A stretch of DNA of 64,000 nt, taken from the IMG/VR virus record IMGVR_UViG_3300005336_000019, positions 1 through 64,000 of that record. The stretch is one strand, 5' to 3'. The position numbers were made by a program, and so were the translations under genes. Shown here one piece after another: positions 21,903 to 38,967 of the stretch (its first letter is position 1; every line of letters begins with the position of its first letter). The notes beneath the pieces were generated by a model that saw only the letters and a list, made by a program, of their open reading frames with translations, did not search any database and was not told where the DNA came from. Source of the stretch: a virus.

Positions 21903-22219
21903 ATCACCCGGAGACCGCAGAGATCGACATTCCGGCCGTGGACGGCACGCTGCTGCACATCGTGCTGAACAAGGAGGAGGGCACCGGGAGGTTCACCTAC
22001 TCCAGCATGGTCGAGGTGCAGCAGCACACCCCGTACGGCCTGCGCCCGCTGGTCACGTACAGCATGGGCGCGGTGCTGCGGGCGCCCCGCAACAAGCCGT
22101 TCCGGCTGCACGACGGGGACGCCGGACTCGTGATCGAGGGCCACTGGCTGATCACGGTCGGGGACTGGATGGAGATGCTGAGCGAGGCCAGCGTCGACAC
22201 GTGGAAGGTGGACATCTGA
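21899..22219 (+). CDS. Hypothetical protein, 106 aa
   Basis: ATG in an ATGA overlap. Beta-rich (DGTLLHIVLNKEEGTGRFTY; VTYSMGAVLRAPRNKPFRL). Its TGA overlaps the next ATG. Unknown function. Confidence 0.83.
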   Translation: MNHPETAEIDIPAVDGTLLHIVLNKEEGTGRFTYSSMVEVQQHTPYGLRPLVTYSMGAVLRAPRNKPFRLHDGDAGLVIEGHWLITVGDWMEMLSEASVDTWKVDI

Positions 22220-22419
22220 TGGCAAGCCTGTCGATCGAGTTCGACAACGACGAGAGCTACCACACGGGACCGCCGCAGGTTCCCCTCGGCAGCGACTTCG
22301 GGTACGCCTCCCTGAAGGGGTACCGGATCGACGAAGGCGGCTTCGTGGTCATGGAGTTCGACAACCACGCCATCCGCAAGGTGCCGGTCCGGCGCCTGCT
22401 GCGCATCACGGAGCTGTGA
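22219..22419 (+). CDS. Hypothetical protein, 66 aa
   Basis: ATG in a TGATG overlap. Small beta protein (FDNDESYHTGPPQVPLG; GGFVVMEFDNHAIRKVPVRR). One base before the macrodomain gene. Not recognised. Confidence 0.8.
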   Translation: MASLSIEFDNDESYHTGPPQVPLGSDFGYASLKGYRIDEGGFVVMEFDNHAIRKVPVRRLLRITEL

Positions 22420-22420
22420 C

Positions 22421-22882
22421 ATGCCGCTGATCTGGACTCAAGGGAACCTGCTGGAGTCGGCGGCGCAAGGACTGGTCAGCCCGGTCAACTGCGTCGGCGT
22501 GCCGGGTGCCGGGCTGGCCCGGCAATTCAAGGACCGCTGGCCCATGCAGGTCGAGGAGTACGTGACCTTCTGCCGGGAGGGCCGGATGAAGCCCGGCCTG
22601 GTGCACGATGCACTTCTGCCGGACGGGCGCCGGATCCTGAGCATCGCCACCAAGCGGCACTGGCGGGACAACTCACGGATCGAGGACGTGGATCGGGGGC
22701 TGGCCGCTCTGAAGGAGTACCTGGACGAGACGGGCCTGATCTCGGTCGCTCTCCCGGCGCTCGGCTGCGGGCTGGGCGGCCTGCCGAAGGCTCTCGTAGC
22801 CCGGCGGGTGCAGTTCTGGCTGGCCGACAATTTCTCCGTGGTCTACGTCTACGGGCTCGACGAGCCGGAGGTGTCGGCGTGA
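22421..22882 (+). CDS. Macrodomain protein, DarG/TARG1-like
   Basis: 153 aa, the length of a stand-alone macrodomain. Signature blocks are in order: TQGNLLES (6-13), SPVNCVGVPGAGLARQF (20-36) for ADP-ribose binding, ATKRHWRDNSRIEDV (76-90) with the Lys-78 position that is catalytic in DarG/TARG1, and LPALGCGLGGL (111-121). The DarG class removes ADP-ribose from thymidine in DNA. With no DarT beside it, a phage copy most likely protects phage DNA against host DarT, though an ADP-ribosylated protein target is possible. Coupled by GTGA to the next gene. Confidence 0.88.
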   Translation: MPLIWTQGNLLESAAQGLVSPVNCVGVPGAGLARQFKDRWPMQVEEYVTFCREGRMKPGLVHDALLPDGRRILSIATKRHWRDNSRIEDVDRGLAALKEYLDETGLISVALPALGCGLGGLPKALVARRVQFWLADNFSVVYVYGLDEPEVSA

Positions 22883-23076
22883 GCAAGGAGATCATCCGGG
22901 TGACCGTCGTCTTCGAGTACGAGGTCGACCCGGAGTTGTACCCCGGAGCGAAAACGCCCGGCGAGCGGGCGGAAGTCGACCGGGAGAACTTCGCCAAGAA
23001 CCCGGACCTGGTGGTGGAAACGCTCGCCGACAAGGGAGCGAAGTCCGTCACCCTCGGGTCTTTCACGATCAACTGA
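22879..23076 (+). CDS. Hypothetical protein, 65 aa
   Basis: GTG overlapping the macrodomain stop (GTGA), so probably co-translated with it. Beta strand IIRVTVVFEYEVDPELYPG then a helix and a C-terminal VTLGSFTIN. Compact fold; function unknown, but context could link it to the macrodomain. Confidence 0.82.
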   Translation: MSKEIIRVTVVFEYEVDPELYPGAKTPGERAEVDRENFAKNPDLVVETLADKGAKSVTLGSFTIN

Positions 23077-30129: not shown

Positions 30130-30663
30130 ATGAATCAGGCACAACAGCAGGAAGCGGAGATCTTCGACGTTGACGGCACCCTGTGCGACGTCAGCAGCGT
30201 GCGCCACTACGTCACTCCTCCGAACCGCGACTTCCACTCCTTCCACATGGCTTCCGCCTTCTGCCCGCCACACCCCGAGGTAGTCGAGCGGGTGCACGAG
30301 GCCAAGGCGAAAGGCCGGGCCGTCCTCGTAGTGACCGCCCGCATGGCCCGGTACCGGACCCTCACCCGGAAGTGGCTGGAGAGCTGCCAGATCCCGTTCG
30401 ACAGCATCTGGACGCGGGCGAACGACGACTTCCGCAAGGACGCGATCGTGAAGCGGGAGATCCTGGCGAAGATCCGGGCCAACGGGTTCGTCGTGATGAA
30501 GGCGCACGACGACAACCCGGCCGTGGTCGAGGTCTGGGAGGACGAGGGGATCGAGACCAAGATCGTGCCCGGCTGGGACGATCAGTTCACTGGCCTCCTG
30601 CTGCCGCAGGACGGCTTGACCGTGGTCAGGGAGTCTGACCGCATCGGAAAGGGAGAGAAGTGA
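30130..30663 (+). CDS. HAD-family phosphatase, polynucleotide 3'-phosphatase-like
   Basis: 177 aa. HAD motifs are in order: IFDVDGTLCD with nucleophile D13 and D15, VVTARM with T69 (motif II), DAIVKRE with K108 (motif III), and KAHDDNP with D127/D128 (motif IV). This matches the phosphatase domain of phage T4-type polynucleotide kinase, which removes 3' phosphates during RNA/DNA repair. No kinase or ligase domain is present here. A nucleotide phosphatase role is the alternative. Coupled to the next gene by GTGA. Confidence 0.83.
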   Translation: MNQAQQQEAEIFDVDGTLCDVSSVRHYVTPPNRDFHSFHMASAFCPPHPEVVERVHEAKAKGRAVLVVTARMARYRTLTRKWLESCQIPFDSIWTRANDDFRKDAIVKREILAKIRANGFVVMKAHDDNPAVVEVWEDEGIETKIVPGWDDQFTGLLLPQDGLTVVRESDRIGKGEK

Positions 30664-38250: not shown

Positions 38251-38967
38251 TCAGGCGTTCTGCGCGGCGTTCCCGGCAGCGACGGCGGCGTTGATGAACG
38301 CCTCCACGTTGCCGTGCTCGACGTTCACGCGGGCCTTGCGCTTGCGCAGCTCCCACGTGGTGGTCGGGCGGCCGGAGCCGTCGAGGACCCGGTCGAGGAC
38401 GCAGACGATCACGCAGTTCTCGCGGCCGACCAGCGAGGGACGGATGCAGAACTGCTTGTTGTTGGCCGTGGGCTCGCCGTCGTAGACGGTGAACAGGACG
38501 TTGCTCGCGCCCTGGAAGCCCTGGTCCTTCATCGCCTTGTTCTTCTTCTTGAACGCGGCGACCTGGACCACGATGCGGTGGAACTCGGCGGGGATCTGGT
38601 CGAGGTGCAGGATCACGGCCTCGTCGTCGCCGTCCTGGGCCTCGGCCCCGGTGATGGCGTCACCCGTGTGCCGCACCGAGCCGTCGCCGGGCTGGCCGTG
38701 CAGGGGGTTCTTGTAGTTCTCGTCCCAGCCGACGCAGAGGGTGACCGGGTCGTTGTCCTGGAAGAGGACGGCGGCGGCGTCGAGGTCCGCGCCCGCCTTC
38801 TTCGAGGCTCGGCCGAAGATGCCTCCACGGCCCTTGGTGCTGGCGTCCCACGCGGCGCCGACCGAGATGGTTCCGGTGACCTGGGCGACGTCGTCCATGC
38901 CCAGTACGGGCAGTCCCGCCGGGGCGAGCTGCGCGTCCGACAGGGTTTCCTTGGTCATGTCCGCCAT
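38251..38967 (-). CDS. TerD-family protein
   Basis: 238 aa. The TerD core is visible: SVGAAWDAST, DLDAAAVLFQDNDPV, CVGWDENYKN, then HTGDAITGAEAQDGDDEAVI, which carries the acidic Ca2+-binding residues, and HLDQIPAEFHRIVVQVAAFK. TerD proteins bind calcium and belong to stress/tellurite and phage-defence related ter clusters. No other ter genes are present. Role in the phage unknown; envelope stress or countering host Ter functions are possibilities. ATG overlaps the upstream stop. Confidence 0.87.
   Translation of the reverse strand: MADMTKETLSDAQLAPAGLPVLGMDDVAQVTGTISVGAAWDASTKGRGGIFGRASKKAGADLDAAAVLFQDNDPVTLCVGWDENYKNPLHGQPGDGSVRHTGDAITGAEAQDGDDEAVILHLDQIPAEFHRIVVQVAAFKKKNKAMKDQGFQGASNVLFTVYDGEPTANNKQFCIRPSLVGRENCVIVCVLDRVLDGSGRPTTTWELRKRKARVNVEHGNVEAFINAAVAAGNAAQNA

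Follow-up and report, generated by a model that had tools for sequence, protein, structure and literature searches.

The window analyzed here (the whole stretch of viral DNA, 64,000 nucleotides long) encodes a stand-alone DarG-type macrodomain protein of 153 amino acids, which probably strips ADP-ribose off DNA, as predicted from its sequence, and which may enable the phage to withstand DarTG defence. By family it is a putative hydrolase and not a DarG antitoxin, because only the hydrolase half is present and the DarT-binding C-terminal domain is absent. The gene and its conserved sites lie at the following window positions.

22421-22882, plus strand: stand-alone DarG-type macrodomain protein, 153 aa, residues 5-144 corresponding to the N-terminal half of DarG
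22475-22513, plus strand: ADP-ribose-binding loop, residues 19-31 (VSPVNCVGVPGAG), placed by alignment
22649-22666, plus strand: TKRHWR motif, residues 77-82, with the K78 codon at 22652-22654
22751-22783, plus strand: second ADP-ribose loop, LPALGCGLGGL, residues 111-121, placed by alignment

The ORF is intact and starts with ATG, and its G+C content at codon positions 1, 2 and 3 (0.72, 0.44 and 0.90) makes it typical of genes in the same genome. Pairwise dN/dS values of 0.04-0.31 among the copies in related phages indicate purifying selection; the ORF is therefore a maintained gene rather than a spurious one.

The protein matched the Pfam Macro profile (PF01661) with 46.5 bits against a gathering cut-off of 22, and its macrodomain matched the DarG profile of PADLOC (5.8e-41) and the NCBIfam antitoxin_DarG profile (NF048014; 5e-40, 137.7 bits). 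The latter score is below the full-length cut-off of 250 bits, since the match extends over profile positions 3-146 of 338 only. The closest sequence matches in the PDB were DarG of T. aquaticus (1.7e-24) and then of M. tuberculosis (9e-22), while TARG1 was matched much more weakly (2.6e-5) and SCO6735 was not reached by this single-sequence query. The earlier note had proposed a structure prediction against DarG, and this comparison gave the same order: for an AlphaFold2 model with a mean pLDDT of 92.3, the top Foldseek matches were the DarG proteins of T. aquaticus and M. tuberculosis (TM 0.88-0.89), with Thermosipho DarTG and TARG1 ranking behind. Compared with DarG of DarTG2 (T. aquaticus 5m31/5m3e and M. 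tuberculosis 5m3i), the window protein has the same fold (TM 0.89), the ADP-ribose loops and the TK(R/K)HWR motif with its catalytic lysine at about 34-41% identity; in contrast to DarG, which has approximately 345-360 residues, it is phage-encoded, has only 153 residues and lacks both the DarT-binding C-terminal domain and a DarT gene.

The lysine of TKRHWR, to which the removal of ADP-ribose from thymidine had been ascribed, was confirmed as K78; its counterpart in the alignment with T. aquaticus DarG is the catalytic K80, numbered 90 in the chain because a ten-residue tag precedes the protein. In DarG this lysine is important for catalysis, and SCO6735 has Gln85 at the same place (PMC9411070). 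K78 is present in the window protein and in all of its near phage relatives, none of which has the glutamine of SCO6735. N23, G26, G29 and G31 of the first loop are invariant in 17 aligned relatives; together with K78 and the GCGLGGL loop, they are conserved among the phage copies and, with few exceptions, in the aligned DarG-type relatives. The peptide patterns used to recruit the cellular and viral-contig relatives contain TKRHWRDN, so part of the motif conservation in these relatives follows from how they were selected; the annotated relatives from phages and plasmids were chosen independently of this pattern. With regard to the Lys84/Asp125 dyad of TARG1, the lysine is present and the position of the catalytic Asp125 is occupied by G119, so the protein is DarG-like and not TARG1-like. 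Therefore, of the DarG/TARG1 blocks initially described, the DarG part holds for the macrodomain, the TARG1 part does not, and the C-terminal half of DarG is missing.

The lysine and the glycine in place of the aspartate also bear on the substrate. It is unlikely that the protein removes ADP-ribose placed by other toxins or host enzymes on protein, on RNA or DNA 5'-phosphates, or on bases that are modified by toxins other than DarT. The ALC1-like macrodomains TARG1 and SCO6735 do have several substrates, and Streptomyces encodes KptA-like and pierisin-like ADP-ribosyltransferases (PMC9411070, PMC11833690). Nevertheless, the window protein keeps the lysine of DarG and lacks the TARG1 dyad, and DarG, unlike SCO6735, is reported to be inactive on protein (PMC9411070).

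A tblastn search with six DarG C-terminal domains found none in the window or in Streptomyces phage Frankenweenie, with the controls being found, and a separately encoded C-terminal domain was thus rejected. Since this domain, which inhibits DarT, is missing from the protein, the protein could mimic at most half of the antitoxin. The small size of the protein (153 aa) and the lack of an extra DNA- or DarT-binding domain would also suit an enzyme that destroys small soluble ADP-ribose derivatives (for instance, cyclic ADP-ribose, His-ADP-ribose or ADP-ribose-1''-phosphate produced as signals by TIR/Thoeris-like defences) instead of marks on nucleic acids. Macrodomains in general have a wide range of ADP-ribose derivatives as substrates, and for most stand-alone phage macrodomains, small ADP-ribose signals were argued to be the main target in a survey covering 21,191 viral proteomes (PMC9503650). 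We consider such a role unlikely here, given that the protein falls into the DarG branch of macrodomains, in which the members tested have ADP-ribosylated DNA as their substrate, that it keeps the DarG lysine, and that no signal-processing partner was found.

The window sits in a 76.5-kb IMG/VR record and is a fragment of a Streptomyces phage of approximately 190 kb. Over a stretch of 24 kb that includes the gene, identity to Frankenweenie (200 kb) is 94%, with 98% of the stretch covered; for six other Streptomyces phages (~185 kb), the figures are 81-82% identity and 38-63% coverage. The gene is present in all seven of these near relatives from the phage collection, and as these are the only Streptomyces phage records carrying it, it is a core gene of the sampled phage group. 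It also occurs on four long viral contigs from the environment (IMG/VR). In GenBank, the gene bears the label 'ADP-ribosyltransferase' in all seven Streptomyces phage records (L002:8001-8462, L003:5001-5456, L004:5001-5456 and four others). This label states the wrong reaction direction, the sequence pointing to an ADP-ribose hydrolase.

There is one macrodomain per genome, and no partner enzyme was detected for it. The DarT profile (PF14487) and the SIR2 profile had no match in eight records (the 76.5-kb record, four long IMG/VR relatives and three complete phages), neither KptA/Tpt1 nor NADAR was found in the six records of the phage group searched, and a Pfam scan of 80 other ORFs of the window yielded no ADP-ribosyltransferase. 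The description of the gene as stand-alone, with no adjoining DarT, was therefore upheld for the 76.5-kb record and its seven relatives. A DarT gene nearby but outside the window, which according to the earlier note would make the protein an ordinary antitoxin, was ruled out by the same profile, three of the eight records being complete. Likewise, a sirtuin-macro pair as reported for phage Moab was discarded because no SIR2 was found, and KptA and NADAR were discarded as partners. A possible second macrodomain, in a gene annotated as a phosphatase, was also rejected, the phosphatase being of the PNKP type.

The genes adjoining the macrodomain gene have no Pfam match above the cut-off, and two of them are small.

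22201-22419, plus strand: 72-aa ORF 5' of the macrodomain gene, ending 1 base before its start; also upstream in Frankenweenie
22879-23076, plus strand: 65-aa ORF 3' of the macrodomain gene, with a GTG start and a 4-base overlap with its stop

The 65-aa ORF is restricted to the seven Streptomyces phages that carry the macrodomain, being 92-95% identical in five of them and 50% identical in Kela and JustBecause. Since the Kela macrodomain is among the closest, the value of 50% hints at mosaic exchange. The 65-aa gene and a downstream gene of 201 aa are conserved beside the macrodomain gene, and most neighbours are uncharacterised, which leaves some place for a very divergent DarT-like phage toxin of which the macrodomain would be the antitoxin, i.e., an ordinary toxin-antitoxin pair. 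Such a pair is hardly to be expected, as the DarT and sirtuin profiles remained empty in the eight records, the neighbours matched no Pfam family, and an ADP-ribosyltransferase would not fit into the 65- and 72-aa genes.

Two further features of the window were annotated.

30130-30663, plus strand: polynucleotide kinase-type 3'-phosphatase domain (HAD_PNKP, 4.4e-18), in the gene block of the macrodomain
38251-38967, minus strand: TerD-domain (tellurium-resistance-like) protein

The PNKP-type gene has a possible role in nucleic-acid end-repair. It lies 7 kb downstream of the macrodomain gene on the same strand, and this position would fit a role of the macrodomain in RNA repair, namely clearing the ADP-ribose-1''-phosphate released by RNA 2'-phosphate removal. 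In addition, Appr-1-p processing is the annotation of many phage relatives, and the macrodomain genes of two Microbacterium phages lie two genes before an RtcB-like RNA ligase, inside a tRNA array.

L034:2992-3444: macrodomain of Microbacterium phage Pumpernickel, with Gln at the position of the DarG lysine, as in SCO6735
L035:1992-2456: macrodomain of Microbacterium phage Zooman, with the same Gln

RNA repair is nonetheless very unlikely to be the function of the window protein: the Microbacterium macrodomains are of a different type, because their catalytic site has Gln instead of Lys, KptA/Tpt1 is missing from the six records, and the annotation of Frankenweenie contains no RNA ligase. The Microbacterium macrodomains, too, are labelled ADP-ribosyltransferase.

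A macrodomain relative was found in 166 phage records, and tblastn with three DarT queries detected DarT among phages solely in Thermus phage phiMa. Of eight cellular relatives, two lie beside DarT, three are fused to it and three have no DarT match, two of the last being situated in type I restriction loci. A further DarT fusion was found on a viral contig (L013), and plasmid relatives include DarT-adjacent DarG as well as stand-alone actinobacterial macrodomains.

L031:1315-3071: complete DarTG pair of Thermus phage phiMa, its DarT annotated as hypothetical
L019:3992-4513: stand-alone DarG-type macrodomain gene without DarT, adjoining type I restriction genes, in a bacterial MAG
L021:3992-4462: a second such gene, likewise in a bacterial MAG

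DarTG itself lies at a location of this kind, beside type I restriction genes, in Meiothermus (L029) and in a reported EPEC island (PMC12255303). The fusions in L013, L022, L023 and L025 are single DarT-DarG chains with little sequence after the macrodomain, like Thermosipho 7omu. One MAG titled Streptomyces griseus (L020) has a contig of 44% G+C and is likely mislabelled or a contaminated bin. The macrodomain of Serratia phage BUCT660 (L033:2001-2297) is annotated too short, its open frame beginning upstream.

The proteins of the Streptomyces phages group into a single clade among the DarG macrodomains, with support of 100/99 and 100/100 in the trees. The sister of this clade is unsure (Sinorhizobium DarG, 88/83). 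The clade sits on a long branch of its own (1.0-1.35 changes per site), so its specificity may have drifted. The macrodomains of phiEco32, phiKZ and Serratia/Klebsiella jumbo phages (PHROG 335, 30914) are likewise stand-alone and phage-encoded, and the lysine of the TK motif is kept in phiEco32, BUCT660, Eowyn and phiKZ, as in the window protein. In contrast to the window protein, these other phage macrodomains are placed on separate tree branches, at approximately 30-40% identity to it. One survey put the share of phages with a macrodomain at 40% for medium and 56% for jumbo phages (PMC9503650).

As to whether there is a DarTG to counter, a complete DarT-DarG operon was found on a plasmid of Streptomyces globosus in the plasmid collection, and DarTG is thus present in the host genus. 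Some Streptomyces have been reported to harbour DarTG (PMC9411070), and Actinobacteria are enriched in it (PMC10482375). Moreover, Streptomyces coelicolor has in SCO6735 a macrodomain that likewise stands alone, with no partner toxin; it reverses DarT marks and rescues both E. coli and S. coelicolor from DarT (PMC9411070); isolated hydrolases can therefore rescue cells from this toxin. SCO6735 differs from the window protein in having Gln85 for the lysine and a longer loop, the window protein being far closer to DarG. At the same time, the benefit of the phage gene is in doubt, because Streptomyces hosts already own SCO6735, which removes ADP-ribose from thymidine. This host enzyme and the absent DarT-binding domain are the main arguments against a function in countering DarT, for which the activity itself is a prediction.

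Beyond these observations, we infer a hydrolase activity, a thymidine-DNA substrate and a counter-defence role. The phage gene would give rise to a free macrodomain enzyme acting like the N-terminal half of DarG, which would bind ADP-ribose attached to a base (thymidine, by analogy with DarG) in single-stranded DNA. K78 would help to hydrolyse the bond between ADP-ribose and the base, restoring the phage template. In a host with a DarTG-like defence, the marks placed by DarT on replicating phage DNA would thereby be undone, and the macrodomain would serve as an enzymatic antidote that does not bind DarT. As the likeliest of the explanations considered, it is quite possible, though short of probable, that the protein hydrolyses ADP-ribose from DarT-modified DNA in this way, repairing phage templates as an enzymatic counter to DarT-like ADP-ribosylation.

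Phage-encoded proteins have already been proposed to neutralise DarT, namely AdfA of RB69 and AdfB of ICP1 (PMC11481870). AdfB, a protein of 77 aa for which no enzyme activity is predicted, binds DarT and is similar to the C-terminal half of DarG; for AdfA, DarT binding has been hypothesised (PMC11481870). The window protein is also phage-encoded but corresponds to the opposite, enzymatic half of DarG, and it aligns with the N-terminal half only, showing no C-terminal mimicry of the AdfA/AdfB type. Since AdfA and AdfB appear to bind DarT, an enzymatic anti-DarT protein would be a variant. The small neighbours of the macrodomain gene were considered as AdfB-like acidic mimics and rejected, their net charge being only -4 each. 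Macrodomain-only DarG matches among viral proteins have been noted as a possible counter-defence (PMC12487901), and among the open-access papers found, none demonstrated that a phage macrodomain counters DarTG. The idea is thus less new than the earlier note implied, both anti-DarT phage proteins and viral DarG counter-defence having been discussed before. Its novelty is further limited by how widespread macrodomains are in large phages, by the presence of the gene in GenBank and by SCO6735, a DarT-reversing macrodomain that Streptomyces hosts already possess.

With more reserve, we suggest that the Streptomyces phage group might use a catalytic, toxin-independent DNA de-ADP-ribosylase as a counter-defence, repairing the damage rather than blocking DarT. 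Repair of the lesion would work on any thymidine-type DarT, whatever its surface, and other phage macrodomains with the lysine could do likewise. For the seven Streptomyces phage records, the public annotation is corrected from an ADP-ribosyltransferase to what is, by sequence, a predicted ADP-ribose hydrolase. If the proposed function is true, it would represent a phage enzymatic answer to DarTG by lesion reversal, complementing the toxin-binding strategy of AdfA and AdfB, and it could partly explain why macrodomains are abundant in large phages.
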